Source: Betaproteobacteria bacterium (GTDB lineage Bacteria; Pseudomonadota; Gammaproteobacteria; Burkholderiales; Rhodocyclaceae). From it: a stretch of 59,775 nucleotides of DNA. Each line of letters opens with the position of its first letter. Within the stretch, counting starts at the first letter, position 1. Both the position numbers and the translations under genes were made by a program. Below, one piece after another: positions 1,806-59,659 of this stretch. Under the pieces are notes generated by a model, which searched no databases, was not told where the DNA came from, and worked only from the letters and a program-made list of their open reading frames with translations. The stretch is taken from positions 1-59,775 of the forward strand of contig WREP01000012.1 of assembly GCA_009779265.1 (NCBI GenBank), written 5' to 3'.

Positions 1806-4800
1806 CTACCCCGGCAACGGCTCAAACAACGCGGCCAAATCGTCATTGCCGAATTTGACCTCGATGCCGCGATCTTCGGAGAGGATGCCGGCGGCGAGTT
1901 CGGCTTTGCGTTCTTGCAGGGCGAGGATTTTTTCCTCGATGCTGCCGCTGACGATCAGTTTGTAGACGAATACCGGCTTGTCCTGGCCGAGGCGGTGGGC
2001 GCGGTCGGTGGCCTGGTTTTCCACCGCCGGGTTCCACCACGGGTCGTAGTGGATGACGGTGTCGGCGGCGGTCAGGTTGAGGCCGACGCCGCCGGCCTTG
2101 AGGCTGACGAGGAAGACCGGCACTTCGCCGTCCTGATAGCGGCGGATCGGCGTTTCACGGTCGATGGTGTCGCCGGTCAGGGTGGCGTAGGCGATGCCGG
2201 CGGCGTCGAGTTCGTTCTGGATCAGGGCCAGCATGCTGGTGAATTGCGAAAAGACGAGAATGCGCCGGCCTTCGTCCACCAGTTCCGGCAGCATGGCCAT
2301 GAGGAGATCGAGCTTGGCCCGCTCCTTGACCTTGCGCGCCGTCGTCGCCCGTACCAGGCGCGGGTCGCAGCAGACCTGGCGCAGTTTCAACAGGGCGTCG
2401 AGGATGACGATCTGGCTGCGGGCAAAGCCTTTTTGGGCGATTTCGTCGCGCACCTTGGCGTCCATCGCCGCTCGCACCGTCTCGTAGAGATCGCGCTGGC
2501 CGCCTTCGAGTTCGACGCTGCGGACGATGATGGTCTTGGGCGGCAAATCCCTGGCGACATCTTCTTTTTTACGGCGCAGGATGAAGGGGCGGATGCGCCG
2601 GGCCAGCAACTGGGCGCGCTGGGTGTCGCCCTGTTTTTCGATGGGCGTCCGCCAATGGCGGACGAATTGCCGGGCGCTGCCGAGAAAGCCCGGCAGCAGG
2701 AAATCGAACTGGCTCCACAATTCGCCCAGATGGTTTTCCAGCGGCGTGCCGGTCAGGCACAGGCGATGGCGCGCCTCGATTTTCCGCACCGCTTCGGCGC
2801 TGCGGCTCTGGGCGTTCTTGACCGTCTGCGCCTCGTCGAGAATGAGCAGGTGGTAGGGATGGCACGTCAGTTCCTCGGTGTCGCGCCAGAGTAGCGGATA
2901 GGTGGTGAGCACCATGTCGTGCGCCGGAATTTCGCCAAAGCGGCTCTTGCGTTCCGGGCCATGCAGCGACAGCACGCGCAGGCCGGGGGCGAAGCGTGCG
3001 GCCTCGTTCTTCCAGTTGAAAATCAGCGAGGTCGGCAGCACGATCAGCGCTGGACGGTCGAGGCGGCCTGCTTCCTTTTCCAGCAGCAGGTGGGCCAGCG
3101 TCTGCGCCGTCTTGCCCAAGCCCATGTCGTCGGCCAGGATGCCGGAGAGATTTTGCGCGCGCAGGAATTGCAGCCAGGCCAGGCCTTCCTTCTGGTAGGG
3201 GCGCAGGGAGAGATTGAGGCCGACCGGCGGGACGATGTCGACGATGCCCTGGGCCGCCCGCAGACGTTCGGCCAGCGCCAGGATGTCGTTCTGGCCGCGG
3301 AATTGCCAGCGGCTGATGTCAGTCAGTTCGGCCAGACGCGGCGCGTCGAAACGCGACAGGCGCAGCGTGTCGCCGCCGGCAAAGCCGTCGAACAGGTCGA
3401 TCAGCGTCGCCGCCAGCGGCTTGATGCGCCCGGCCGGCACGCGCAGGCGCTTGCCGTTGGCGGTGTGCAATTCAACCGGCGCGTCGTCGGGCAGGCGGGC
3501 CAGTTCGCCGGCTTCCAGCCAGCGCGGGTCGCGGCGGAACAGTTCGGCGAGGAGCGGCGCCAGCGGCAGGCGCTCGCCTTCGACGATGATGCCCATGTCG
3601 AGATCGAACCAGCCGTTGCCGGTTTCGTACAAATCCGCTTCCCAGCCATCGACTTCGATGATGTGATGGCGGAAATCGTCGGCGAACTCGACCTGCCAGC
3701 CGTCCTGGCGCAACTGGTCGATGGCGGTTTGCATGAAGGGCGTCCAGGCAGCCTCGTCGGCCAGGCCATAAAGCCCTTCCGGCGCGCTGCCGAAGGTAAA
3801 CAGGGTATGTCCCGGCAGCTTTTGCAGGCCGCTGCCCGAGAGGGCCGCGAGCGCCTTGGCCTCGGCCTCGGGGCGGCGCACCAGACGCACCGTCTCGCCT
3901 TCCGGCAGGGTGATGAATTCGCTTTTTTCCTCGGGCCGGATGTCGATATCGGCGTAGCGGAAAACGATCCGGGCCACGTCGAACAGGCCGTCGGCGAAGC
4001 TGGCCTGATAGTTGCGCCAGCTACGGTGGCTGTGGGTGTGCAGGGTTTCCAGTTGGAGGATGGCTTGCAGCGGCGCTTCCACCCGGCGCAAGCGGGCGCT
4101 GGCATCCTCGGCCGGCAGCGGCAGGTCGGGCGCCAGGTCGGACAGCGCCTCGGCGACCAGCGCCGCCTCCTTGGCCGACAACGGCGGCAGCGAGAAGAGG
4201 CGGTTGATGACAGCCGGATTGCCGACGACATCGAGCGGCCCGGCCTCATCCTCGGTGAGATCGACGTACCAGGGCGGATTGACGCCGATAATCATGGTCG
4301 CTGGCGGCTGTGCTTTCAGGGCCGGGCGCTGGAAGCCCTGGGCGTCGATCTGCCAGCCGATGCTGGCCGGGCGCGTGGCGCCAGCGGCCAGCGGCAGCGC
4401 GAGATCGTCCTCGGGATAGAGGCGCTGGCTGGCCGTCAGGCGCTGGAGGATTTCGCCGCCATGCTTCGGCCCCAGGCCGAAGGCGCGCAGCCCGCTTTCA
4501 TGGGCGCGTTCGGCCCAGATCAGGCGCAGGATGCCGATATCTTCCTCGCCGACGAATTGCGGCGGATTGACTAGGGCGCGCTCGACGTTCCACCACGCCT
4601 CGGCGCTTTCCGGGTATTTGCCCTTGCGGATTTCGATGCCGAAATGGCGGCGGTCAGCGCTCCATTTCAGGATGTAGAACAACTGCTGGCGGACGCCGGC
4701 CGGACGCGCCTTTTTCTTGGCCACGGCGATGGAGACGCGGCGCAGATCCTCGACCCATGAAAGCACGCTGCGGCTGACCCGTTGGCTCGGATTGCGGCTG

Positions 4801-23280: not shown

Positions 23281-24969
23281 TCAGCGCGGCGGCTTCCAGT
23301 CGAGATCGCGGTGGCGGGCGAGGTGGCGCGGCGTCCACGAATGCGGCGAGCGGCGGACGAAATGATGGCGCGCGACATGATAGGAGGGATCGAAGCCGTA
23401 GAAGTTGCGCCGCATCTCGGCCAGCTCCTCGGCCCGCCAGGCGGCCAGCGGTTTTTCCACCTCGTCGGCGGCGCGGCGGGCGTTCTTGACCGCCAGTTGT
23501 TCGGCGAAATCGGGCGCGGCGGCCAGTTCAGCGGCGCGGCGGGCGACTTCGCCGGCAAAGCCAGGCGTCGCCAGACAGGCGTCGTAAAAGCCGAGCGCCA
23601 CCGCTTCGGCGGCGGTCATCGGCAGGCGTCGGCGCATGATGGCGCGCGCGCCCTCGGCGCCGACGCGCGGTGGCAACAGGTAAGTCCAGAATTCCGAGCC
23701 GTGGAGATTGCCCACGTTGCGGTAGTGCGGATTGAGCATGACGCCGTCGCGCACCCACACCCGGTCGGCGGCGCGCGCCAGGAAGCAGCCGCCGGCGCCG
23801 GCATTGCCGCCGACCGCCGCCACCGTCAACTGGCTGGCGCAGCGGAGAATGGCCTCGGCCAGATCGTCGATGGCGTTGATGTTGGCCCACGACTCGTCGG
23901 CCGGACTTTCCGCCGCCTCGATGCTGTTGAGGTGGATGCCGTTGGACCAGAAATCGGGGCCGCCGCTCAGCACGATCACCCGCGTCGGCCGGCCGCTGGC
24001 CCAGCGGAAGGCTTCGCTCAGGCGCCGGCACTGGCCGGTGCTCATCGCCCCGTTGTAGAAGGCGAAGGAGAGGAAGCCGACGCCATCGGCTTCCTCGTAG
24101 GCGATGTCCTGCCAGGTCGCGGCGGGCGAGCGCCACCAGCCGGACAGCGGCAGTTCCGGCAGGGCCGCCGCCTCGGCAAAGGCCAGCGTCGCCGGCAGCT
24201 TGAGGCCGCCATTGATGCCTTCCTCGCGGCGGACGTGGCCGAGCCAGATGGCACCGTCGGCGGTGGCGCGCAGGATGGCCGTCTCGCGCCGGCCGAGCAG
24301 GCTTCCCGGCGGCCCTTTTAGCGCCGCTTCCGGCCAGGCGTCGAACAGGCGGCAGGGCTGGCCGAATAATTCGTCGGCGACGCCCGGCATGCCGTCAGCG
24401 GCATCGAGCCGGGCCAAGGCGTCGGCGGTGGTCATGGCTTGCCAGTCGATGGCCCGGTCGGTTTGGCGCATTGCCGCGTGCGCTTGGCCCGGCACGCGGC
24501 GCGGCGTGAAAACGCCGCCTTGGAAGCGGTCGACGGCGGTGAGCACGGCGCGTAGCGCCGCTTCGGTGACTTCGTTGCGATAGACCGAGGATTTGCGCGC
24601 CGCCGGCAGCGCGAAGCGCTCCTCCGCCCAGACCGGGCCGGCATCCATTTCCGCCTCGGCCTGCAAGACGGTGACGCCCCATTCCGGGCGCCGCTCGCTG
24701 ATCGCCCAATCCAGCGCCGCCGGGCCGCGATCGCCGACGATGCCGGGATGGACGATCAGGCAGCAATGGCGCGACCAGATCGACGCGGGAATGGCCCGCC
24801 GCAGATAGGGCGCGATGATCAGATCGGGGCGAAACAGCGCCACCGCTTCTTCGGTAACGGCATCGGCGATGTCGAACTCGACGCTGAGCAAATGCCCGCG
24901 TTCGGCCAGCGCGCAGTAGAGGCGCTGGCTCAGGCTGTTGAAACTGTGCGTCAGTAACAGGATGCGCAT
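23281..24969 (-). CDS. hypX: HypX (HoxX), CO-ligand-forming hydrogenase maturation protein
   Basis: About 562 residues in two domains. The N-terminal half is formyltransferase-like ('MRILLLTHSFNSLSQRLY', 'PDLIIAPYLRRAIPASIW', 'LIVHPGIVGDRGPAALDWAI'). The C-terminal half is an enoyl-CoA hydratase/isomerase fold ('RVIVLSGGPDFWSNGIHLN', 'VAAVGGNAGAGGCFLARAADRVW', 'LHGSEFWTYLLP'). HypX makes the active-site CO of NiFe hydrogenases from formyl-tetrahydrofolate through formyl-CoA, so it marks a hydrogenase that matures in oxygen. The ATG overlaps the hypE stop by 1 nt (TAATG). Confidence 0.93.
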   Translation of the reverse strand: MRILLLTHSFNSLSQRLYCALAERGHLLSVEFDIADAVTEEAVALFRPDLIIAPYLRRAIPASIWSRHCCLIVHPGIVGDRGPAALDWAISERRPEWGVTVLQAEAEMDAGPVWAEERFALPAARKSSVYRNEVTEAALRAVLTAVDRFQGGVFTPRRVPGQAHAAMRQTDRAIDWQAMTTADALARLDAADGMPGVADELFGQPCRLFDAWPEAALKGPPGSLLGRRETAILRATADGAIWLGHVRREEGINGGLKLPATLAFAEAAALPELPLSGWWRSPAATWQDIAYEEADGVGFLSFAFYNGAMSTGQCRRLSEAFRWASGRPTRVIVLSGGPDFWSNGIHLNSIEAAESPADESWANINAIDDLAEAILRCASQLTVAAVGGNAGAGGCFLARAADRVWVRDGVMLNPHYRNVGNLHGSEFWTYLLPPRVGAEGARAIMRRRLPMTAAEAVALGFYDACLATPGFAGEVARRAAELAAAPDFAEQLAVKNARRAADEVEKPLAAWRAEELAEMRRNFYGFDPSYHVARHHFVRRSPHSWTPRHLARHRDLDWKPPR

Positions 24970-26021
24970 TAGCAAATCCGCGGCAATTGCTCGCCGGAGA
25001 GCCAGTCCACGATGCGCCGGCCGCCGAGGGCGGTGGTCATTTGCACGAAATGATGCGGGTCGTCATGCACCGAACCGATGATTGCCGCCTGCCGGCCAAG
25101 GGGGTGGGCGCGCAGCGCCGCCAATAGCTTGTTTGCGTCCTTTTCCGCGCAGATCGCCACCAGTTTGCCTTCGTTGGCGACATAAAGCGGGTCTAATCCA
25201 AGAAATTCACAGGCCGCGTTGACCGCCGGATTCACCGGCAGCGCCTTTTCCTGCAACATCATGCCGACCCCCGACTGGCGGGCGATTTCGTTCAACGTCG
25301 TGGCCAGCCCGCCGCGCGTCGGATCGCGCAGCACATGGAGATCGGCGCCGCTGTCTTGCAGCGCGGCGACCAGTTCGTGCAGCGCCGCCGTGTCGGAAAC
25401 GATGGGCGAGGCGAAACCAAGGCTCTCGCGTTCGGCCATGATGGCCATGCCGTGATCGCCGAGCGTGCCGGAAACCAGAATGGCATCGCCCGGCCGCGCC
25501 TGCCGCCCGGACAATTCCCGGCCCGGCGGAACGACGCCGACGCCGGTGGTGGTGATGAACACTCCATCGCCCTTGCCGCGCTCGACCACTTTGGTATCGC
25601 CGGTCACCACCGGCACCCCGGCAGCCTTGGCCGCCGCCGCCATACTCTGCACGATACGTGACAGATCGGCGAACTTGAAGCCTTCTTCGAGGATGAAGCT
25701 GGCCGCGAGGTACAACGGCCGCGCCCCCATCACCGCCACGTCGTTGATGGTGCCATGCACCGCCAGGCAGCCGATGTCGCCGCCGGGAAAGAACAGGGGC
25801 GAGACGACATGGGCGTCGGTCGCCAGCACCAGCCGCCCGCCCCCCGGCGCCGGCAACAAAGCGCCGTCGTCGCCCTGGGCCAGATAGTCGTTGCCGAGAT
25901 GGCGGGCGAAAATCTCGTCAATCAACTGCGCCATCGCCCGCCCACCGGAGCCATGCGCCATGTCGACCCGGCCTTCCTTGAGGTCGAGGGGACGGACGTA
26001 ATTTTTGCGGGATTCACTCAT
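24969..26021 (-). CDS. hypE: HypE, carbamoyl-dehydratase of NiFe-hydrogenase cyanide ligand synthesis
   Basis: 350 residues from ATG 26021. It has the PurM-like fold marks 'MAHGSGGRAMAQLIDEIF', 'GDDGALLP', 'VHGTINDVAVMGARP', 'GVPVVTGDTKVVE' and 'LRDPTRGGLATTLNEIA', and the invariant C-terminal 'PRIC' whose Cys is carbamoylated by HypF and dehydrated to thiocyanate. In a typical operon it follows hypD directly; here a 719-bp integron-type cassette separates them. Its original ribosome-site context (overlap with hypD) has been replaced by the cassette's attC, so translation may now be weaker. Confidence 0.96.
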   Translation of the reverse strand: MSESRKNYVRPLDLKEGRVDMAHGSGGRAMAQLIDEIFARHLGNDYLAQGDDGALLPAPGGGRLVLATDAHVVSPLFFPGGDIGCLAVHGTINDVAVMGARPLYLAASFILEEGFKFADLSRIVQSMAAAAKAAGVPVVTGDTKVVERGKGDGVFITTTGVGVVPPGRELSGRQARPGDAILVSGTLGDHGMAIMAERESLGFASPIVSDTAALHELVAALQDSGADLHVLRDPTRGGLATTLNEIARQSGVGMMLQEKALPVNPAVNAACEFLGLDPLYVANEGKLVAICAEKDANKLLAALRAHPLGRQAAIIGSVHDDPHHFVQMTTALGGRRIVDWLSGEQLPRIC

Positions 26022-26029
26022 GACTGGAT

Positions 26030-26090
26030 GCCTGACGACCAAGATAACCGGCGCGGCGTAGCCGTGCCCGGGTTGATTGCAGGGTTAGAT
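26030..26090 (-). other. Solitary integron attC site inside the hyp operon
   Basis: Read on the minus strand, this 61-bp element starts ATCTAAC (R''), continues CCTGCAATCAACCCGGG, and ends with CGCCGGTTATCTTGGTC and GTCAGGC (R'). It matches the six 61-bp attC sites at 56.6-59.1 kb in length, order and most bases. The R' core is GTCAGGC instead of GTTAGGC. Confidence 0.88.
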
Positions 26091-26754
26091 GTTGGACAAG
26101 AACCATGACCTTTGCCTGCCTTGAAAAATCAGGTATGCCCCAACGCCAGATATACGCCATGCACAACGTCAACTCTACTGATCTCGTCCGCGCTGTCCAA
26201 GAAGACAAGTTTCTCTTTGCAGATTTTACTTGTGCGAACAAGATGTGCATTCGCTTGCCGTATCTCTGGCAGATCAAGGAAGGCTATGAACTTCAGGAAA
26301 TTTTCTGGAACTATGCTTGCCTTTGTCTTCCCGTTTAATAGTGCGGTGATGTCTTTTTCGATGCCTATTCTTTGTGCAGAGCCGTAAACGCCCCCGTTAT
26401 TGATTGGCACATTACACTTGACCTCACCAACAAATGAGACCGGATAATCAAGCTTGATGTCATATCCGTTTGAGCTGGGCTTTGCATTAAGGACGCTGTC
26501 TCGTAGCTCAGCGGTATATTGATCATCAAGCAATAATTTCCCTGCGATCCAGTCTGCGAAAGCCAGTGTCACGCGCAGAGTAAGAATATTATTGATGTCT
26601 GAAAGAGTAGATTTTAGTTTTAGAAGTGACGCCGCGTTGAGTTGACCGTAGTAGTCGTGCTTAGGCATAGAAAGGCAATCGACGAAGAATCTATTTAGAC
26701 GATGGCGAAGTGCCTGTTCTCGCTCGTAAACGGGATTAATCATGAGTGGCCTGA
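26036..26754 (-). mobile_element. Integron gene cassette inserted between hypD and hypE
   Basis: A 719-bp unit holds one gene plus a terminal attC, in the same orientation as the hyp genes. It is flanked by direct repeats GTCAGGC (minus strand 26755-26749 and 26036-26030). Deleting it restores hypD reading ...S-Q-A-S-S-H-E-stop with its TGA overlapping the hypE start (ATGAGTGA), a usual operon junction. The cassette replaces the last hypD codons by T-H-D-stop. It is much more AT-rich than the flanking genes. Confidence 0.85.
26129..26743 (-). CDS. Cassette-borne protein, possible PD-(D/E)XK-type nuclease
   Basis: 204 residues from ATG 26743, which overlaps the hypD stop by 8 nt, so it is probably translated by coupling. 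No family was recognised with certainty. Residues 112-130 read 'SNGYDIKLDYPVSFVGEVK': an Asp followed about 13 residues later by E-V-K on a predicted strand, then 'YGSAQRIGIEKDITALL', which is the arrangement of restriction-endonuclease-like PD-(D/E)XK cores. A helical N-terminus ('REQALRHRLNRFFVDCL') precedes it. Low GC and the attC downstream show foreign origin. A defence or DNA-processing role is inference. Confidence 0.75.
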   Translation of the reverse strand: MINPVYEREQALRHRLNRFFVDCLSMPKHDYYGQLNAASLLKLKSTLSDINNILTLRVTLAFADWIAGKLLLDDQYTAELRDSVLNAKPSSNGYDIKLDYPVSFVGEVKCNVPINNGGVYGSAQRIGIEKDITALLNGKTKASIVPENFLKFIAFLDLPEIRQANAHLVRTSKICKEKLVFLDSADEISRVDVVHGVYLALGHT

Positions 26755-27875
26755 CTATCTTTATGCCGCCCATAAGTGTAATGCGCCGCGCAAGCGCCTT
26801 CCGAGGACACCATGCACGAGCCGACCGGGTTTTCCGGCGTGCACACCGTGGCGAACAGCTTGCAGTCGCGCGGGCGCTTGACGCCGCGCAGGATGGCGCC
26901 GCATTCGCAGGCTTTGTGGTCGGGCACCGGGCGGTAGGCGAGGGAGAAGCGCCGTTCGGCGTCGTATTCGCCATAGTCATGGCGGATGCGCAGCGCCGAG
27001 TAGGGCAGCGCGCCGAGGCCGCGCCATTCGAAGCTTTTGCGCAGCTCGAATACCTCGGCCACGAGCCGCTGCGCCTTGACATTGCCGGCGCGGTCGACGG
27101 CGCGCGTGAATTCGTTTTCGACTTCGGCGCGGCCCTCGTTGACCTGGCGGATCAACATGCGGATGGCCTGCATCACGTCGAGCGGCTCGAAGCCGGCGAT
27201 GACCACCGGCTTTTGGTATTCCTCGGCGAAAAATTCGTAGGGCCGGCTGCCGATGATGGTCGATACGTGGGCCGGGCCGATGAAGCCGTCCAGCGGCACG
27301 GTGCCCCATTGGCGCACTTCCGGCGATTCGAGAATGCTGGCAATGGCCGACGGCGTCAGCACATGGCAGCAGAGAACCGAGAAATTGGGCAGGCCGAGCG
27401 CCGCCGCCTGCTGGATGGCTACCGCCGTCGGCGGCGTCGTCGTCTCGAAGCCGATGGCGAAAAACACGACCTGTTTTTCGGGATGTTTTTGCGCCAGCGC
27501 CACGGCGTCCATGCTGGAATAAACCATGCGCACGTCGCCGCCGCGCGCCTTGGCCTTTTGCAGCGACAGGCCGTTTGATGCCGGAACGCGCAGGCAGTCG
27601 CCGTAGGCGCACAGCGTTACACCCTGTTCCAGAGCCAGGCGGATGGCCTGGTCGACGCGGCCAATGGGCAGCACGCAGACCGGGCAGCCGGGGCCGTGGA
27701 TCATGCGCACGTTGGCGGGCAGCAGGTCGCTGATGCCGTAGCGCGAAATGGCGTGCGTGTGGCCGCCGCAGAATTCCATGAAATGATAGCGACGGGCCGG
27801 ATTGGCGGCGCGGCGGATGGCCTCGGCCAACCCGCGGGCGAGGTCGCCGTCGCGGAATTCGTCGATGTATTTCAT
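26736..27875 (-). CDS. hypD: HypD, NiFe-hydrogenase Fe(CN)2CO assembly scaffold
   Basis: 379 residues with all HypD marks: 'EFCGGHTHAISRYG', 'HGPGCPVCVLP' (iron-binding Cys), 'FFAIGFETTTPPTA' and the C-terminal Fe4S4 cluster Cys set in 'KACECGAILRG', 'RDCKLFATVCTPENPVGSCMVSSEGACAAHYTYG'. Together with HypC it carries the Fe(CN)2CO unit to the hydrogenase large subunit. It overlaps hypC by ATGA. The last three codons (T-H-D) and the stop come from the inserted cassette, without touching conserved residues, so the protein should work. Confidence 0.97.
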   Translation of the reverse strand: MKYIDEFRDGDLARGLAEAIRRAANPARRYHFMEFCGGHTHAISRYGISDLLPANVRMIHGPGCPVCVLPIGRVDQAIRLALEQGVTLCAYGDCLRVPASNGLSLQKAKARGGDVRMVYSSMDAVALAQKHPEKQVVFFAIGFETTTPPTAVAIQQAAALGLPNFSVLCCHVLTPSAIASILESPEVRQWGTVPLDGFIGPAHVSTIIGSRPYEFFAEEYQKPVVIAGFEPLDVMQAIRMLIRQVNEGRAEVENEFTRAVDRAGNVKAQRLVAEVFELRKSFEWRGLGALPYSALRIRHDYGEYDAERRFSLAYRPVPDHKACECGAILRGVKRPRDCKLFATVCTPENPVGSCMVSSEGACAAHYTYGRHKDSQATHD

Positions 27876-28117
27876 CCGGGCAGCATTTCGCCCATTTCGC
27901 CGCCGGCTTCCAGTTGGGCGAACAGCGCCAGCGTCCGCGCTGCCTCGTCGGCATCGAGCTTGTTCAGCGCGTAGCCGACATGGACGATGACGTAATCGCC
28001 GGGCGCTACGTCCTCGACCAGGGCCAGCGAAATTTCCTTCCTCACTCCGGCGAGATCGACGACGGCCATCTCGCCGTCACGCAGTTCCACCACTTGGGCG
28101 GGAATGGCCAGACACAT
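27872..28117 (-). CDS. hypC: HypC, hydrogenase maturation chaperone
   Basis: 81 residues beginning 'MCLAIPAQVVEL', the invariant HypC start in which Cys2 binds iron and contacts HypD and the hydrogenase large subunit. The OB-fold core 'VDLAGVRKEISLALVEDVAPGDYVIVHVGYAL' and helix 'KLDADEAARTLALFAQL' are typical. It overlaps hypD by 4 nt and follows hypF after a 249-nt gap that contains a palindromic repeat. Confidence 0.97.
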   Translation of the reverse strand: MCLAIPAQVVELRDGEMAVVDLAGVRKEISLALVEDVAPGDYVIVHVGYALNKLDADEAARTLALFAQLEAGGEMGEMLPG

Positions 28118-28366: not shown

Positions 28367-30778
28367 TTACTTGCCGCATTGCGCCTGTAGATGCTGGCGG
28401 CCGATCCAGGCTTGCCCCAGCGCCAGGCCGCCGTCGTTGGGCGGCACACGACGCGCTTCCAGCAGGCGCAGGCCGGTGTTTTCCAGATGGCCGCGTAGCG
28501 CCCGCATCAGCACCGCATTCAAGGCGCAGCCGCCGGCTGCCGCCAGCGTTTCCAGCCCTTCGCGCCGCGCTGCGGCAAGCAGCCAGTCGGCCAGCGCGGC
28601 GGCAAGCGTGGCATGAAACAGCGCCGCGCCGTAAGGCGCGTCGTCGCAATCGAGCAGGGCGGGGACTAGCGGCGTCAGGTCGAGCGTGCCGTCGCTGTCC
28701 AGCCGCCAGCCGCCGGCCAGCGGCGCAAGCGGGCCGTGGCTGGCGATCCATCCTGCCGCTAGCCCTTCCAGTTCCATCGCCGCCTGCCCCTCGTATTGCT
28801 GTACGGCGCGGCAGCCGAGCAGGCCGGCGGCGGCGTCGAACCAGCGGCCAAGGCTGCTGCTCGGCGGGCAGCGCAAATTGGCGGCGAGCATGGCGAGCAG
28901 CGGGCCGGTTTCGTGCTGCGGAAAGCGGCGCCGCCGCCAGTCCTCGCTGCGCTCACCGAGGCCGGCGACATGTAGGGCGGCCAGTCCCATGCGCCACGGC
29001 TCACGGGCGGCGCGGTCGCCGCCGGGCAGCGGCAGGGGGCGCAAGTGGCCGAGGCGTGTGCACGCCGCCCCTGCCACACGCAGCAATTCGCCGCCCCACA
29101 GGCAGCCATCCGGCCCGAGGCCGACGCCGTCGATGGCCAGCCCGAGTACCGGCGTTTCAATGCGATGCTCGGCAAGGACGGCGGCGATATGGGCATGGTG
29201 GTGGCCGACGGCCAAGGCCGGCACGCCCAATTCGTCGGCCAGGCGGCGGGCCAGCGCGGAAGAGGGATAGTCGGGGTGCAAATCGTGCACCACCAGTTGC
29301 GGTCGCGCTTCCAGGATGGCCGGCAGGTGCGCCGCCATTTCTTCGAGAAAGCCGAGCGTGGCGACATTGTCCAGGCTGCCGATATGTTGCGACAGCCAGG
29401 CGGCATCGTCGCGCATCAGGCACAGGGTGGTTTTCAGAAAGCCGCCGAGCGCCAGCGCGCACGGCCCGCCGCCGCTCAGCGGCACGGGCAGCGGTACATA
29501 GCCACGGGCGCGGCGGATCAGGATCGGGCCGGCGCGCAGCAGCGAATCGTCGCAGCGGACGACGATGTCGCGATCGTGTACCAAATAAGCATCGGCGATG
29601 CCGGCCAGTCGATCGAGTGCCTCTCCGTTACCGATGACCAGCGGCTCGCCGTGCGGATTGGCGCTGGTCATTACCAGCAGCAGATCGGAAATTTCGGCGA
29701 GCCAATCGCTGCCGCTCGGCCGACCCGCAGCCTCATGCCACAACAGCAGATGCAGCGGCGTCGCTGGCAGCATGACGCCGAGCCAGGCCAGGCCGGGCGC
29801 GATGCCGGGCAATTCGGTGCATAGCCCCTCCCCCCTCGGAGGTTGTCGCAAAAGGCTCAATCCGCGCCCTTGAAGCCCCTCCCCCCTCGCGGGGGAGGGG
29901 TTGGGGAGAGGGGGAGGTGGATCATCTTTTTCCGCCTTGGGGCAAAGCACAATCGGCCCCGCTGGCGAGCGCAGCAGCTTTTCGCATTCCGCGTCGATCC
30001 GCGCCAGTCCCGCCAGCGATGCCGGATTCAGGCCCATGATCGCGAACGGCTTGGCCTCGCGCTGTTTGCGTTCGCGCAGCGTGGTCACCGCTGCCGCGTT
30101 GCGCGCGTCGCAAGCGAGATGAAAGCCGCCCAAGCCCTTGATGGCGACGATCCGGCCCGCCCGCAGCAAGGCCAGCGCCGCCGCCAACGCATCGCCGGGC
30201 AAGGGCTGGCCGGCGGCGTCGAGCAATGAGAGGCGCGGGCCGCAGTCCGGGCAGCACGTCGTTTCGGCATGGAAGCGGCGGTCGGCGGGATCGGCATATT
30301 CGGCGGCGCACGGCGGACACAGCGGAAAAGCCGCGAGGCTGGTGCGCGCCCGGTCGTAAGGCAGGCCGTGGCTGACCGTGTAACGCGGCCCGCAGTGGGT
30401 GCAGGTGGTAAAGGCATAGCGCCAGCGGCGGCCCGCCGGATCGAAAACATCGGCGATGCACTCGGGGCAGAGCGCGGCGTCGGGACCGATGGCGCTGCCA
30501 AGCGCGCCCGGCAGGCTGCGCAGAATGGCGAAACCGCCCTGCTCCGGCGGTTCGGCGGCCGCTATATTAATAGCATCGACCCGCGCCAGCGGCGGCGCCT
30601 CGCGCGGCAGGCGGGCGAGAAATTCATCCAGCCGTTCGCCGGCAACCAAGAGGCTGACATCCGCGCCGTCATTGCGCACCCAGCCAGCCAGCCCGAGTTC
30701 CCCGGCCAGCCGCCAGACATAGGGCCGAAAGCCGACCCCCTGGACCAGACCGCGGATGCGCAGCAAGCGAGCAGGCAT
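28367..30778 (-). CDS. hypF: HypF, carbamoyltransferase of hydrogenase cyanide-ligand synthesis
   Basis: 803 residues, longer than the usual 750-770. Order: acylphosphatase domain ('LLRIRGLVQGVGFRPYVWRLA', residues 4-25), two zinc fingers ('CPECIADVF...CTHCGPRY' and 'CPPCAAEY...CPDCGPRL'), a YrdC-like domain ('RIVAIKGLGGFHLACDA') and a Kae1-like domain with 'HHHAHIAAVLAEH' and 'AAAGGCALNAVLMRAL'. It makes carbamoyl-AMP and carbamoylates the HypE C-terminal Cys. A 36-residue Pro/Gly/Arg-rich insert sits in the YrdC part, encoded by a dispersed repeat (29824-29928). The start at 30778 gives the canonical N-terminus. Confidence 0.95.
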   Translation of the reverse strand: MPARLLRIRGLVQGVGFRPYVWRLAGELGLAGWVRNDGADVSLLVAGERLDEFLARLPREAPPLARVDAINIAAAEPPEQGGFAILRSLPGALGSAIGPDAALCPECIADVFDPAGRRWRYAFTTCTHCGPRYTVSHGLPYDRARTSLAAFPLCPPCAAEYADPADRRFHAETTCCPDCGPRLSLLDAAGQPLPGDALAAALALLRAGRIVAIKGLGGFHLACDARNAAAVTTLRERKQREAKPFAIMGLNPASLAGLARIDAECEKLLRSPAGPIVLCPKAEKDDPPPPLPNPSPARGEGLQGRGLSLLRQPPRGEGLCTELPGIAPGLAWLGVMLPATPLHLLLWHEAAGRPSGSDWLAEISDLLLVMTSANPHGEPLVIGNGEALDRLAGIADAYLVHDRDIVVRCDDSLLRAGPILIRRARGYVPLPVPLSGGGPCALALGGFLKTTLCLMRDDAAWLSQHIGSLDNVATLGFLEEMAAHLPAILEARPQLVVHDLHPDYPSSALARRLADELGVPALAVGHHHAHIAAVLAEHRIETPVLGLAIDGVGLGPDGCLWGGELLRVAGAACTRLGHLRPLPLPGGDRAAREPWRMGLAALHVAGLGERSEDWRRRRFPQHETGPLLAMLAANLRCPPSSSLGRWFDAAAGLLGCRAVQQYEGQAAMELEGLAAGWIASHGPLAPLAGGWRLDSDGTLDLTPLVPALLDCDDAPYGAALFHATLAAALADWLLAAARREGLETLAAAGGCALNAVLMRALRGHLENTGLRLLEARRVPPNDGGLALGQAWIGRQHLQAQCGK
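29824..29928. repeat. Dispersed GC-rich repeat inserted in frame in hypF
   Basis: The stretch carries a 16-bp direct repeat AGCCCCTCCCCCCTCG at 29824 and 29875, and a palindrome CCCCTCCCC-CCTCG-CGGGGAGGGG. In hypF frame it gives P-N-P-S-P-A-R-G-E-G, the typical translation of a repeat usually found between genes. The edges are estimated from where HypF-like sequence resumes. Confidence 0.7.
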
Positions 30779-30871
30779 GGATGTGTCCCCGAAAAAATGG
30801 AACGCTACCATCAATGGCTGCGTTTCAAGCCGAAAAACGCCCCGGGGCTCGGCTTGACGCCTGCGCTGTCG

Positions 30872-30904
30872 TGACACAAAATTTGCCCCCGCCCCCTTGT
30901 GTCA
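30872..30904. promoter_or_regulatory. Candidate operator between hypF and the binding-protein gene
   Basis: TGACACAA-N17-TTGTGTCA is a perfect 8-bp inverted repeat in the 203-nt region between the divergent starts of hypF (30778) and the BtuF-like gene (30982). The half-site and spacing differ from the NikR-like site at 21932, so the regulator is unknown. Confidence 0.5.
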
Positions 30905-55552: not shown

Positions 55553-56158
55553 TTACAACGCATCCAGTGGACTCAAAATTCCCCGCCCGCCCTTGTTGAG
55601 CACATGCGTGTAAATCATGGTCGTGCTCACATCCGCATGGCCCAGCAACTCCTGCACCGTCCGAATGTCATAACCTGCCTGTAGCAGATGCGTGGCGAAC
55701 GAATGACGCAACACATGCGGCGACACCGGTTTTTCAATGCGCGCCAGCCGCGCCGCCTCGCGCACCGCACGTTGTACCGATTCGGGATAGATGTGATGGC
55801 GCCGTTCCAGCAACTTACCCGTGCGCGCATCCGGACGCGGGTCAACGGCGCGCACTGCCGACGGAAACACCCACTGCCACGCCCAACTCCGATCCGCCGT
55901 GGGATACTTCACCGCCAGCGCATGTGGCAAATACACTTGGCCCAATCCGGCATTCAAATCCTTTTCGTGCAGCGCCCGCGCTTTTTCCAATTGCGCCTTC
56001 AGGGGCGCGATCAGGTTTTCAGGCAGCACCGTCACCCGATCCAAATACACTTGCTCGGTGCGAATGCTGTAATGCCGCGTGCGCAGATGGATACGCATGC
56101 GCTCCAGCAATCCTGGCTGGCGCGGAAGGTCGGCGGGAGCGTCTGAAGAAGAGATCAT
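55553..56158 (-). pseudogene. intI: Integron integrase IntI with internal deletion
   Basis: 201 residues in one open frame, against about 330-340 for the family. The N-terminus '[24 protein letters not shown]' runs straight into '[17 protein letters not shown]', which in intact IntI lies about 135 residues further on. The intI-specific patch ('[25 protein letters not shown]') and the catalytic H-x-x-R, H and Tyr ('[14 protein letters not shown]', '[18 protein letters not shown]') remain, but most of the core-binding domain and the first catalytic Arg (the 'GTGMR' segment) are gone. It can hardly be active. The start ATG 56158 gives the normal N-terminus. Confidence 0.9.
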
Positions 56159-56280
56159 CCGGGAAATTTTAGGCTTGCCCAAACAATGCCGGATGTATAT
56201 TGTAGCGAGGATTTTCTCATGATACATTGCTTTATGCGACGGATCATCACGAGATAGCCGTCGTCTAATTCTAGTTAGGT
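56159..56280 (+). other. attI region with core site
   Basis: The gap between intI and the first cassette ends in the core GTTAGGT (56274-56280), preceded by TCGTCTAATTCTA, as expected for attI. TTGCCC at 56175 and TATATT at 56196 (15-nt spacer) are a weak candidate for the cassette promoter Pc. Confidence 0.75.
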
Positions 56281-56663: not shown

Positions 56664-56724
56664 ACCTAACCCGGCAATCAACCCGGACACGGCTCCGCCG
56701 TGCCGGTTATCTTATCCGTTAGGC
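56664..56724 (+). other. attC1
   Basis: 61 bp: R'' ACCTAAC at the left, R' GTTAGGC at the right, with CAATCAACCCGGAC... and ...CCGGTTATCTTATCC between, forming the usual imperfect hairpin around GGCTCCGCC. Confidence 0.93.
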
Positions 56725-56730
56725 ACAAAA

Positions 56731-57204
56731 ATGACACCACTCGCGATCATCAAGTACATAGTCGAGCGTTTGCAGGGTACAACATACGAGCCGTGGGTAA
56801 ATGCGCTGCTTTTTATGCTTCTATTCGTGGCCATACTCGCTGCGATCATGTTTCTGCTTGGCAAAGGCGGTCGCAAACTTGTTTCAAACGCGGCGTCGGC
56901 GGTAACCGAGAAGCTCAAGAATCGTCGTGGCTTTGCTCCCGAGTGGGAGCAGTTCCGCCTGCGCGTTGAGCCGTACGTTGATCTGGGAAGTTCCATTTAC
57001 TTCGCGTTTGTAGGACTCTACTCAGCGTTGCTCGTTGGGATTGCTGCTGTCTTAGCAATGCACAAGGCTCCGGCTTGGGCACTGCTTGTTTGTATGGTGT
57101 GGGTATTGGCTAGCTTTTTTTATATGCGCATAAACTTGGAGGCAGCCTCATGGGCTTATCACAAAATAAAGTCTCGCAAGAAAATCGGGGTCAAACCCCG
57201 ATAA
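56731..57204 (+). CDS. Cassette 2: membrane protein of unknown function
   Basis: 157 residues starting 7 nt after attC1. Helices at about 26-46 ('ALLFMLLFVAILAAIMFLLG'), 88-110 and 115-133, with a basic stretch between ('KGGRKLVSNAASAVTEKLKNRRG') and a Lys/Arg-rich C-terminus. No family recognised. No clear ribosome site, which is common for cassettes and suggests reliance on the attC-adjacent leader. Confidence 0.8.
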   Translation: MTPLAIIKYIVERLQGTTYEPWVNALLFMLLFVAILAAIMFLLGKGGRKLVSNAASAVTEKLKNRRGFAPEWEQFRLRVEPYVDLGSSIYFAFVGLYSALLVGIAAVLAMHKAPAWALLVCMVWVLASFFYMRINLEAASWAYHKIKSRKKIGVKPR

Positions 57205-57245
57205 CGCATTTTTTAAGGCAGGCAAGGTCGTGGTTCTTGTCTAGC

Positions 57246-57306
57246 ACCTAACCCTGCAATCAACCCGGACGCAGCTACGCTGCGCCGGTTATCTTATCCG
57301 TTAGGA
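57246..57306 (+). other. attC2
   Basis: 61 bp: ACCTAAC ... GTTAGGA, otherwise nearly identical to attC4 (ACGCAGCTACGCTGCG centre). Confidence 0.93.
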
Positions 57307-57469
57307 AGCATTGAACCACCGCATTTCGTGCCCATGCCGTTTTCATTCTTTTGCGCTGCCTCCGCTCAATGTTCGGCATCGCGGCCACATCCCGCTCTGG
57401 CAGACGGAGGTGGTATTCTTTGCGGGTCGTGCGTTCGGTTGGGTTTGTGTCCGGCACTTCGCCCAAGCG
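57307..57469. other. Cassette 3: short cassette without a convincing gene
   Basis: 163 bp between attC2 and attC3. A plus-strand frame (57328-57528, 66 codons) ends by reading through attC3, and a minus-strand frame also stays open (57487-57275), but neither shows a ribosome site or a recognisable protein. It could be an ORF-less cassette, a promoter cassette or a small RNA or toxin carrier. Confidence 0.5.
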
Positions 57470-57530
57470 TCCTAACCCTACAATCAACCCGGACGCACGT
57501 ACCGTGCGCCGGTTATCTTGTCCGTTAGGC
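57470..57530 (+). other. attC3
   Basis: 61 bp: TCCTAAC ... GTTAGGC with ACGCACGTACCGTGCG centre, matching attC5. Confidence 0.93.
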
Positions 57531-57562
57531 TTTTCTCATTTACCTCGATTCAAGGAGTTTTC

Positions 57563-57961
57563 ATGTCATCCTTCACTGATCCAACCAAACAAGAAATTTG
57601 GGCTACTGTCCGTGCAATGAATGATGCGTGGACAAAGGGAAACCCCGATGATCTTTCCAAGTTCTTTCACCGAGACATGGTGGCAGTCACCCCCACAGAT
57701 CGCAATCGCTTAGATGGGGGTGCAGCCTGTATCGCCGGATGGAAAGGCTTTCGTAACGCAGCTCTTATTCATCGTTGGGAGGAAATAGAGCCTGTCATTC
57801 ATGTTTACGGTAATTCGGCTGTTGTCGCATACTCTTTTGACATGTCGTTTGACATGGCTGGTAACACGATAAACATGGGCGGGAGAGATCTGTTCTTCTT
57901 CATCAAAGAAGGCGAAAAATGGTGGGCAGTTGCAGATCAATTTTCTCCATATCCGGCCTAA
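57563..57961 (+). CDS. Cassette 4: SnoaL/NTF2-like protein
   Basis: 132 residues from ATG 57563 with AAGGAG 7 nt upstream. 'EIWATVRAMNDAWTKGNPDDLSKFFHRDMVAVTP' and 'VIHVYGNSAVVAYSFDMSFDM...GRDLFFFIKEGEKWWAVADQFSP' fit the cone-shaped NTF2/SnoaL fold (DUF4440-like). Members are enzymes or binding proteins for small hydrophobic ligands. The TAA stop lies within the R'' of attC4. Confidence 0.85.
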   Translation: MSSFTDPTKQEIWATVRAMNDAWTKGNPDDLSKFFHRDMVAVTPTDRNRLDGGAACIAGWKGFRNAALIHRWEEIEPVIHVYGNSAVVAYSFDMSFDMAGNTINMGGRDLFFFIKEGEKWWAVADQFSPYPA

Positions 57962-58016
57962 CCCTGCAATCAACCCGGACGCAGTTACGCTGCGCCGGTT
58001 ATCTTATTCGTTAGGC
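57956..58016 (+). other. attC4
   Basis: 61 bp: GCCTAAC ... GTTAGGC. The stop codon of the cassette gene is inside R''. Confidence 0.93.
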
Positions 58017-58018
58017 GA

Positions 58019-58579
58019 ATGAACTATCCAATCACAATTGCAGGAGCCATCGTTCTGTTCGCGTTCTTTGCGCATACAATTGTTGGCATCCGAGAGGCTC
58101 TGAGCACTCGCCTGCATAGAACCTCAGCCGAAGGCGACGTAGACATCGTGATAGTGGAACGGAACTGGGTTCAATCCCTTTGTGCCTTTCAGCTGGTCAC
58201 CGTTGACCTATTCGTTTTTTCGGTGCTGCTGTTGGTGCTGGGTACGACAGATCTATTGCCCGCCAGAGGAGAAATCGCTTTGGGTGCTGCCTGCTTCTTT
58301 ACGCTTTGGGGCATAGCATGGCTCGTCCAACTGCTCGTCTTGCGTCGTAGCTTGAAGGACTTAATGGGTCTTATGGTTCGTTTGTGTCGGCTTACTCTTG
58401 TGGGGTGCGCAATCGCTATGATCGTAGTCGCCAAACAAGTCGTTGCAGCAGACTGCTCACCCGCTACGCAGGCGCGCGAAGGTGTTATGCTTCACAGATC
58501 ACGCACTGAATGGGCGCTGTGCCTAACCTTACAATCAACCCGGACGCACGTACCGTGCGCCGGTTATCTTATCCGTTAG
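58019..58579 (+). CDS. Cassette 5: membrane protein reading through its attC
   Basis: 186 codons, starting 3 nt after attC4. Helices at about 7-25, 55-80, 88-108 and 122-145. No family recognised. There is no stop before attC5, so the frame crosses the whole attC and ends at the TAG inside GTTAGGC; the last 18 or so residues (...STRTHVPCAGYLIR) are attC-encoded. Either the tail is genuine or an upstream frameshift removed the original stop. Confidence 0.75.
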   Translation: MNYPITIAGAIVLFAFFAHTIVGIREALSTRLHRTSAEGDVDIVIVERNWVQSLCAFQLVTVDLFVFSVLLLVLGTTDLLPARGEIALGAACFFTLWGIAWLVQLLVLRRSLKDLMGLMVRLCRLTLVGCAIAMIVVAKQVVAADCSPATQAREGVMLHRSRTEWALCLTLQSTRTHVPCAGYLIR

Positions 58580-58581
58580 GC
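58521..58581 (+). other. attC5
   Basis: 61 bp: GCCTAAC ... GTTAGGC, centre as in attC3. Lies inside the cassette 5 reading frame. Confidence 0.93.
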
Positions 58582-58602
58582 ACCTTCATTTAGGCACTTT
58601 GC

Positions 58603-59043
58603 ATGATTCATACGAAAAGCCAGGCCGCGAAGTTTCAAGTGCAGGTCACAAATGGAACGCAGTTTTCCATGGCCGATACATCGCCCGATAAGGGCGGAGG
58701 CAATGCCGGTTTTCGTCCCCATGAACTGCTTGAAGCCGCTTTGGCCAGTTGTATGAATATGAGTTTGCGCATGTACGCCGAGAAGCATTCCTTCCCGCTT
58801 TCTGGCGTATCGGTCAGTGTTTCGCTCAACCGAGCCAATCCCGGCGTACCGTCTTTTGAATACAGCGCCGAGTTTGAGGGTCCGCTATCGGAAGCGCAAA
58901 GAAGTCAGTTGCTCACCGTCCTAGAAAACTGCCCCGTTCGCAGCACATTATCGAAGCCCTTGCAGTTCAAACTTCATGAACAATCGCTGCCCCTGGATGC
59001 TCAAGAGCCAAAGGTGATCCAAATTGTGCGGCATACCACCTAA
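58603..59043 (+). CDS. Cassette 6: OsmC/Ohr family protein
   Basis: 146 residues. The OsmC fold is shown by 'GFRPHELLEAALASCMNMSLRMYAEKHSFPLSGVSVSVSL' with the first redox Cys, and 'LLTVLENCPVRSTLSKPLQF' with the second. The two-Cys pair of this family reduces organic hydroperoxides. The length is normal. The stop is in R'' of attC6. A stress-resistance cassette is a reasonable reading. Confidence 0.93.
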   Translation: MIHTKSQAAKFQVQVTNGTQFSMADTSPDKGGGNAGFRPHELLEAALASCMNMSLRMYAEKHSFPLSGVSVSVSLNRANPGVPSFEYSAEFEGPLSEAQRSQLLTVLENCPVRSTLSKPLQFKLHEQSLPLDAQEPKVIQIVRHTT

Positions 59044-59098
59044 CCCTACAATCAACCCGGACGCACGTCCCGTGCACCGGTTATTTTGTCCGTTAGGT
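59038..59098 (+). other. attC6
   Basis: 61 bp: ACCTAAC ... GTTAGGT. Slightly diverged (CACGTCCCGTGCA centre, TTATTTTGTCC). Confidence 0.92.
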
Positions 59099-59116
59099 CC
59101 AAGCAATGAGCATGCT

Positions 59117-59581
59117 ATGATCATCCGTAAGGCTATAGTACAAGACGTGCCTCAAGTCGCTGAAATGGTAGGCGAGTTGCTTGCTGAAATCATGAACGCC
59201 ATCGGTGTTCAGGCATTCAATTTCGATCTTTCCAAGACAGTTAATCGCCTTATCGATTTCATCAATCAAGAGAAATATTTTGTTTTCGTGGCCTGTGATG
59301 GTGCCTCGCCTGTGGGTTTCATTGCTCTTTATGAAAGCTATGCACTCTATGCAGAAGGCTCCTTCGGCACCATTCCTGAACTTTACGTCCGCCCGATGTA
59401 TCGTTCAAAACAGGTAGGGTTCCAACTGCTCTCCCAGGCAAAATCATTCGGCCAGTCGCGCAACTGGACACGCTTGGAAGTGACTACACCGCCCCTTCCT
59501 CAGTTCGATAAAACACTGGCCTTTTATGAGCGCGAGGATTTTTCAATCAGTGGTGGCCGCAAACTCAAGGTGTCGCTGTGA
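59117..59581 (+). CDS. Cassette 7: GNAT-family N-acetyltransferase
   Basis: 154 residues from ATG 59117. GNAT layout: 'MIIRKAIVQDVPQVAEMVGELLAEI', 'VFVACDGASPVGFIALYES', 'GTIPELYVRPMYRSKQVGFQLLSQAKSFG' (acetyl-CoA loop, with the Q/RxxGxG-like 'RSKQVGFQL') and 'LEVTTPPLPQFDKTLAFYEREDF'. The substrate is unknown. GNAT genes are among the commonest integron cargo. Confidence 0.9.
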   Translation: MIIRKAIVQDVPQVAEMVGELLAEIMNAIGVQAFNFDLSKTVNRLIDFINQEKYFVFVACDGASPVGFIALYESYALYAEGSFGTIPELYVRPMYRSKQVGFQLLSQAKSFGQSRNWTRLEVTTPPLPQFDKTLAFYEREDFSISGGRKLKVSL

Positions 59582-59588
59582 CACTCGG

Positions 59589-59659
59589 GCCTAACAATCC
59601 GGTCCAGCGACAGCCGGCCAGCTACGCTGTCCGCCTGCCGCTGACCTTCGTCGTTAGGC
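59589..59659 (+). other. attC7, divergent type
   Basis: 71 bp: GCCTAAC ... GTTAGGC, with inner sequence CAATCCGGTCCAGCGACAG and CCGCTGACCTTCGTC unlike the 61-bp family. It points to a cassette from another integron lineage. Confidence 0.88.

Follow-up and report, generated by a model that had tools for sequence, protein, structure and literature searches.

How does a gene that carries an integron recombination site come to lie inside a hydrogenase maturation operon? The window (the whole 59,775-nt stretch of DNA analysed here) makes up one contig of a draft assembly in 75 contigs (2.53 Mb, 94% complete), from an organism that the names of HypE homologues place near Azonexus/Dechloromonas. Within it a single open reading frame of 204 aa, followed by a single 3' attC in the same orientation, separates hypD from hypE, with hypC and hypF located upstream (Table 1). 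GTCAGGC occurs at both ends of the unit and the G-to-G distance of the two cores is 719 nt on the minus strand; the bounds that we give place the predicted crossovers after the G at 26,755 and after the G at 26,036. The unit is markedly poorer in G+C than its neighbours (0.469 compared to 0.654 for hypD and 0.658 for hypE), as is the GC3 of its open reading frame (0.473 compared to 0.826 and 0.806). The ATG of the cassette gene overlaps the present hypD stop codon by 8 nt (ATGATTAA), and both HypD and HypE are intact, with full matches to NCBIfam equivalog models. These results bear out the initial annotation, which had described an AT-rich, one-gene cassette in sense orientation, flanked by GTCAGGC and two undamaged hyp genes and situated ~30 kb from the integron array (array start near 56.27 kb), and they confirm its main point, namely that a cassette resides within the hyp operon.

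Table 1. Features of the window, and host cores at the scored cassette junctions of the lineage.
Feature	Position	Strand	Host core	Remark
hypE	24969..26021	-		
Right core GTCAGGC	26030..26036	-		its TCAGGC taken as host sequence before hypE
attC, 61 nt	26030..26090	-		located by BLAST and covariance model
attC R' GTCAGGC	26030-26036	-		
attC R'' ATCTAAC	26084-26090	-		
Cassette unit, 719 nt	26036..26754	-		TCAGGC ... attC ... G; predicted crossover place
Cassette gene P0001, 204 aa	26129..26743	-		from ORF list
hypD	26736..27875	-		C-terminus now read through left core
Left core GTCAGGC	26749..26755	-		at hypD end
hypC	27872..28117	-		
hypF	28367..30877	-		
Integron integrase gene intI	55553..56158	-		internal in-frame deletion of about 135 residues compared to sister species
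First array core GTTAGGT	56274..56280	+		attI side by position; by eye
Array attCs in window, span	56664..59659	+		
Array attCs, 61-nt family	56664-56724, 57246-57306, 57470-57530, 57956-58016, 58521-58581, 59038-59098	+		
Array attC, different type, 71 nt	59589-59659	+		
hypE junction			GTCAGGC	own genome
ftsE junction (ftsY/ftsE)			GTTAACC	attC read by eye
glgA junction (pgi/glgA)			GATAACC	two contigs of one draft
recG junction			GATGGAA	start codon in core
pssA junction (ilvC/pssA)			GTTAGCC	
tyrA junction			GATGAAC	start codon in core
scpA junction (trpS/scpA)			GATGGAC	start codon in core
YlqF GTPase junction			GTTGAAC	
DUF4345 gene after alaS			GCTAGGC	

The attC at the hyp site belongs to the family of the resident array, as had been proposed. 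We trained a covariance model on 12 array attCs, leaving out the one at hyp; it scored the site at 68.5 bits (E 8e-15), and the best non-self BLAST match of its region within the genome was 88% over 59 nt (E 2.2e-15). Searching the genome with the 70-nt attC region returned 20 places by BLAST, while the covariance model, which represents one attC family and which more distant attCs could escape, returned 23 at E <= 1. A strict attC consensus pattern had no match within the window; relative to RYYYAAC ... GTTRRRY, R'' fits and R' reads GTCAGGC. The strand that folds is the plus strand of the window. When this bottom strand was folded, a check suggested by the initial annotation, the free fold was unremarkable (-12.5 kcal/mol, z -1.97, with 10 of 200 shuffles as good), and the canonical attC fold, with a probability of 2.5e-6, was weak, at the low end of, but within, the range computed for six array attCs (1.7e-6 to 4.9e-3). 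The weak point is the R box, in which, of six pairs, one is mismatched and another is a G-T wobble, and which is weaker than that of the array. At the transcript level, the RNA fold predicted for the attC region gave no support for an unusual structure (z -0.99), and an Rfam search produced no relevant match.

We then compared the hypD/hypE junction across the genus. A HypE match was obtained from each of the 76 genus genomes, in several cases to distant paralogues only, and the junction sample comprised 30 loci, 29 besides our own, with hypD visible in 28. These 28 relatives displayed an 8-nt overlap of hypD and hypE in 6 cases, 18-19 bp in 2 and a spacer of 83-706 bp in 20; in the three relatives closest by HypE, 517, 528 and 84 bp separate the two genes. 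The cassette gene was found in none of the 28 junctions, the attC model had no match on 30 hyp loci (the 29 other genus loci and L012), and the cassette protein matched none of the relatives' spacers longer than about 50 bp. The comparison with relatives called for in the initial annotation thus favours insertion: none of the 28 relatives carries the gene at this junction without an attC, although an empty site with the same flanks was not found among the relatives compared. The 83-706-bp spacers, considered as possible cassettes, were rejected given that the attC model and the cassette protein were both unmatched; by eye, four long spacers among the seven inspected were rich in G+C and in repeats, and the other three measured 19-85 bp. 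In many genus members (L055, L058, L065 and similar loci) the spacer consists of ~500-700 bp of G+C-rich repeats. GTCAGGC also occurs within such a repeat (L055, L065); this raised the idea of a core derived from a repeat, for which no evidence was found.

The initial annotation had further argued that removal of 719 bp restores an overlap of the two hyp genes. Deleting these 719 nt in silico does yield an 8-nt hypD/hypE overlap (ATGAGTGA). However, 7 of the 20 removal lengths tested (710-729) give this same overlap and 6 give a 4-nt overlap, so that about one length in three behaves as the claimed one does; frame restoration is therefore weak evidence, and we rejected it as proof.

The cassette gene itself is rare in this lineage. 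A single-sequence search with its product returned a match in only one of 199 family genomes, its own, and a 34-sequence profile matched in 2 of the 76 genus genomes. In the second of these (L134) the gene lies inside a cassette array with an attC on both sides, and the gene recurs with identical surroundings in a named Azonexus record (L085). In a wider protein search, 92 proteins were recovered at E <= 0.001, which leaves 90 once the query and a shorter version of the query are set aside, and none of the 92 bears a precomputed Pfam domain. The few homologues that come with a name are annotated as hypothetical proteins, from Shewanella, Pseudoalteromonas, Vibrio, Thioflavicoccus and other organisms, and homologues from Bacteroidales share 27-39% identity. 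Plasmids contained no match to the cassette protein, whereas viral contigs contained three homologues, with an attC recognised in neither of the two whose flanks were inspected. Inspection of 15 homologue loci revealed attCs beside the gene in five (L085 and, by eye, L083, L087, L088 and L089), a doubtful attC in L084 and none recognised in the other nine, indicating that the family is often, but not always, found as a cassette gene; an overly strict attC script run over 23 loci had detected only L085. In L089 (Methylomonas lenta), near 2990-3670, a homologue together with one attC looks by eye like a solitary cassette that occupies a GTTAAGT site and is not part of an array. Searches with PADLOC and NCBIfam gave no match for the cassette protein, a sequence search of solved structures gave none (best E 0.42) and Foldseek gave none at E <= 0.001. 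We regard the protein as a likely candidate for a PD-(D/E)XK-like nuclease, with D95, E107 and K109 as putative residues of a D...ExK active site.

The hyp insertion is one of several in its own genome and in sister species, which the initial annotation had missed. Nineteen of the 23 attCs in the genome lie in the array at the end of the window or within about 2 kb of the end of another contig, and the remaining four are internal to contigs, where they occupy three locations: the hyp site, contig C15 and contig C14. On C15 (L143, 6786-9250), cassettes with two attCs and open reading frames of 343 and 358 aa, neither of which matches a Pfam family over its cut-off, occupy the leuA/yihY interval. 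The left core there reads GTTAGGC followed by CACTCA, like the left end of the hyp cassette. On C14 (L145, 5782-6835), cassettes lie between aroG and serB, and the last of the cassette genes (145 aa, DUF6869), which reaches up to serB, is not followed by an attC. In relatives, serB follows aroG by 0-853 bp in 23 of 29 loci and was unseen in the other 6, and yihY follows leuA by 479-1357 bp in 25 of 29 loci. Across these 58 aroG and leuA loci, the attC model gave a single match, an insertion between ilvC and pssA in the sister-species draft G261.

We additionally examined 20 stretches from the sister-species drafts G260, G261 and G262, which were selected from the model matches and do not represent all of them. 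Matches to the attC model were present in 19, and in nine of these an attC was directly followed by the start of a host gene; the other ten, which were left unscored, contained array pieces, clusters before further cassette-like open reading frames, or intergenic ends. Together with the hyp site, the nine sister-species cases make ten scored junctions (Table 1), the core-gene insertions being those of G260 and G261, with host genes confirmed by Pfam or NCBIfam. The model scores of the nine stretches (27-57 bits) were below that of the hyp site. In eight of the ten junctions the host core reads GWT, a count to be read with the model's own preference for G-T-T at the core in mind, and the exceptions are the hyp site (GTC) and the alaS site (GCT); in three (recG, tyrA and scpA) the start codon forms part of the core, as G|ATG. 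Scoring only attCs that precede a gene start forces an orientation shared with the downstream gene, and the upstream host genes that could be identified (n=10: hypD, leuA, aroG, ftsY, pgi twice, ilvC, trpS, alaS and a degQ-like gene) were all in cassette orientation as well. In G260, contigs C24 (L212) and C17 (L214) carry different cassettes that end at the same GATAACC core between pgi and glgA, as if one site had been used twice or two strains had been mixed in the draft.

For the ilvC/pssA insertion, the 30 leuA loci (L176-L205) provide a good empty-site comparison. Leaving aside L184, which is without pssA, L190, which is the G261 insertion, and L176, which is our own genome, the ilvC/pssA gap measured 132-384 bp in 25 of the remaining 27 loci, with no reliable gap obtained for L197 and L201. 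Three relatives read TTTTAGCCAATG at the place where the G261 insert ends in TTAGCCCATG, and the G261 right core therefore looks like native host sequence. Among other genus members, 20 attC-bearing stretches inspected by eye mostly showed attCs followed by more cassette-like or unidentified genes, and no clear operon insertion was scored in them. In one (L235, from G243), a cassette-like gene 36 nt after an attC starts like a TIR-domain protein, judged by eye from its first 45 residues.

An integron integrase gene is present in the window, and it is the sole one found in the assembly and is internally deleted. Its product of 201 aa matches the integron-integrase family at positions 160-315 only, below the cut-off. 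Compared to the genes of sister species, it retains the N-terminal 40 residues and the C-terminal part, with about 135 residues missing in between; the missing segment is conserved and contains GTGMRLLECLRLR, which we take to include the first catalytic arginine of tyrosine recombinases. Four further integrase-family matches occur in the assembly, at 20-74 bits where the cut-off is 265, and the 14 control genomes also give matches at this level. By comparison, 48 of the 76 genus genomes contain an integron integrase over the cut-off, and the genes of the sister species are full-length. Since the only intI found is deleted, the insertions either predate this deletion or used an integrase from elsewhere; with a draft that is 94% complete, a second copy may also have been overlooked. 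In the array itself, 12 of the 13 aligned attCs have a GTT core, and one, on contig C40, reads GTCAGGT.

Taken together, these results lead us to favour, with a probability of roughly 0.8, the reading that the insert is a single cassette of the resident attC family, which IntI inserted at an attG-like secondary site, which is now probably frozen, and whose gene is read from the hyp operon. The integron integrase would have joined the folded bottom strand of the attC to double-stranded GTCAGGC at hypD/hypE, cutting after the G, and the product would then be host G / cassette gene - attC / host TCAGGC, a layout in which no host base is lost. If the cassette entered a GTC site behind its G, the empty host site would be expected to read GATA-GTCAGGC-ATCCAGTC. 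Such a crossover implies host G/TCAGGC and a cassette that starts with TCAGGC, a six-base match, and a cassette of this kind is possible given the GTC core on C40. Because its ATG overlaps the new hypD stop, the cassette gene should be transcribed and translationally coupled in the hyp operon, and hypE, behind the attC, would retain a start of its own. On this reading, the other cassettes between core genes in this genome and in sister species would have arrived by the same process. As intI has since lost its internal segment, the cassettes have probably become fixed, barring a supply of IntI in trans.

The target sequence is the less regular part of this picture. The attG consensus is GWT. 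One account gives the target motif as GNT, extended to GTTRRRY (PMC10127599), and the hyp site, with GTC, falls outside both. The initial annotation had left the route of entry open on the grounds that both cores read GTCAGGC and not GWT; the sequence is as it described, a GTC core is now known from the array as well, and the GTC of the hyp site, together with an R box weaker than that of the array, makes the route less than certain. Given GTC here versus GWT in eight of the ten lineage junctions, we describe the event as one that works like an attG insertion rather than one that fits the consensus. Either the cassette core or its repair history is odd, in that both cores read GTCAGGC while R'' pairs best with GTTAGAT.

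One version of events that would account for this oddity is that IntI inserted a GTTAGGC-type cassette, the left core of which was subsequently converted or mismatch-repaired to the host GTCAGGC. The better fit of R'' to GTTAGAT and the prevalence of GTT cores in the array (12 of 13) point in this direction, but an extra step is required and the array does hold a GTC core (1 of 13), and we consider core repair unlikely, if worth keeping in mind. The integrase could also have been uninvolved, had a circle or array fragment bearing GTCAGGC crossed over with the chromosomal GTCAGGC in a Campbell-type event, whether through ordinary recombination or through microhomology. The identity of the 7-bp cores at the two ends, a GTC rather than GWT target and the resemblance by eye between the start of the cassette gene (ATGATTAATCCCG) and that of hypE (ATGAGTGAATCCCG) are all compatible with such an entry; against it, 7 bp offers very little length for homologous exchange, the break falls exactly at the attC core and the other insertions of the lineage end at GWT host cores, which makes it improbable in our judgement.

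Readings that dispense with an insertion fare worse. Repeated attC sequence might have produced an assembly chimera, as the draft has many contigs that end in array fragments; against this, hypD and hypE occur in normal order on either side of a complete cassette on one contig, and P0001 and P0003 are each listed on 2 contigs. Assembly error at the hyp insertion is unlikely, and a chimera of this kind very much so. Nor do we give any real credence to the idea that the gene has long belonged to the hyp operon and by chance ends in a hairpin resembling an attC. Sense orientation and the 8-nt overlap with hypD do resemble an operon gene, but the gene is absent from the 28 other genus junctions and from 74 of the 76 genus genomes, its relative in the genus sits in a cassette array, and its GC3 (0.473) departs from the 0.81-0.83 of its neighbours. 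As far as the genus has been sampled, with the gene in 2 of 76 genomes and 0 of 28 junctions, an ancestral operon gene is refuted.

Integrase-mediated insertion at an attG-like site therefore remains our preferred reading for the hyp cassette, and it raises a broader proposal, on which we are evenly divided. In the Azonexus/Dechloromonas sub-lineage, the integron may act as a genome-wide gene inserter that seeds cassettes at short core sites between core genes, sometimes at G|ATG; cassette genes would thereby become transcribed, perhaps translationally coupled, members of housekeeping operons, integrase loss would fix the result, and the hyp cassette would be one frozen product. Integrons are usually viewed as gene stores, with one array and one promoter. 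The insertions at hypD/hypE, ftsY/ftsE, pgi/glgA, trpS/scpA and ilvC/pssA suggest a second fate, in which cassette genes join conserved operons and integrons act as a source of new genes for ordinary operons. A laboratory result on attG sites thereby becomes testable in nature, in terms of the cores used, the frequency of fixation and whether integrase loss follows, and the host cores listed in Table 1 (eight of ten GWT, three with a start codon) constitute a ready test set.

Finally, we compared the hyp cassette with known systems. Cassettes at secondary or attG sites have reportedly been described by Recchia & Hall 1995, Segal & Elisha 1997 and Loot et al. 2024. The hyp cassette shares with these a single attC outside an array, precise ends, retention of the host sequence and a presumed role of IntI, and differs from them in being a natural insertion in a chromosomal operon, in its GTC core, in the presence of several such loci in one lineage and in the deleted integrase. 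Single and clustered attCs lacking an integrase are termed SALIN and CALIN, respectively (PMC12690207, PMC12444791). The hyp attC resembles the former, as the nearest other attC found in the covariance-model scan lies ~30 kb away, and C15 and C14 resemble small clusters. Xanthomonas CALINs, as far as these sources describe them, adjoin a few conserved loci, whereas here cassettes end directly at host gene starts. A further comparison is with the chromosomal integron of a related betaproteobacterium, Dechloromonas aromatica RCB, for which the portion of the account at hand describes an array and calls secondary-site insertion possible (PMC2426708); unlike the hyp cassette, no operon insertion features in that portion. 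A survey of titles and the beginnings of abstracts, with subscription papers mostly outside its scope, found no report of cassettes inside hyp or other core operons. The hyp cassette is thus of a known kind, located at a secondary or attG-like site with a core outside the GWT consensus, and what is unusual is its setting, in a lineage with recurrent cassettes between core genes and with the local integrase deleted.
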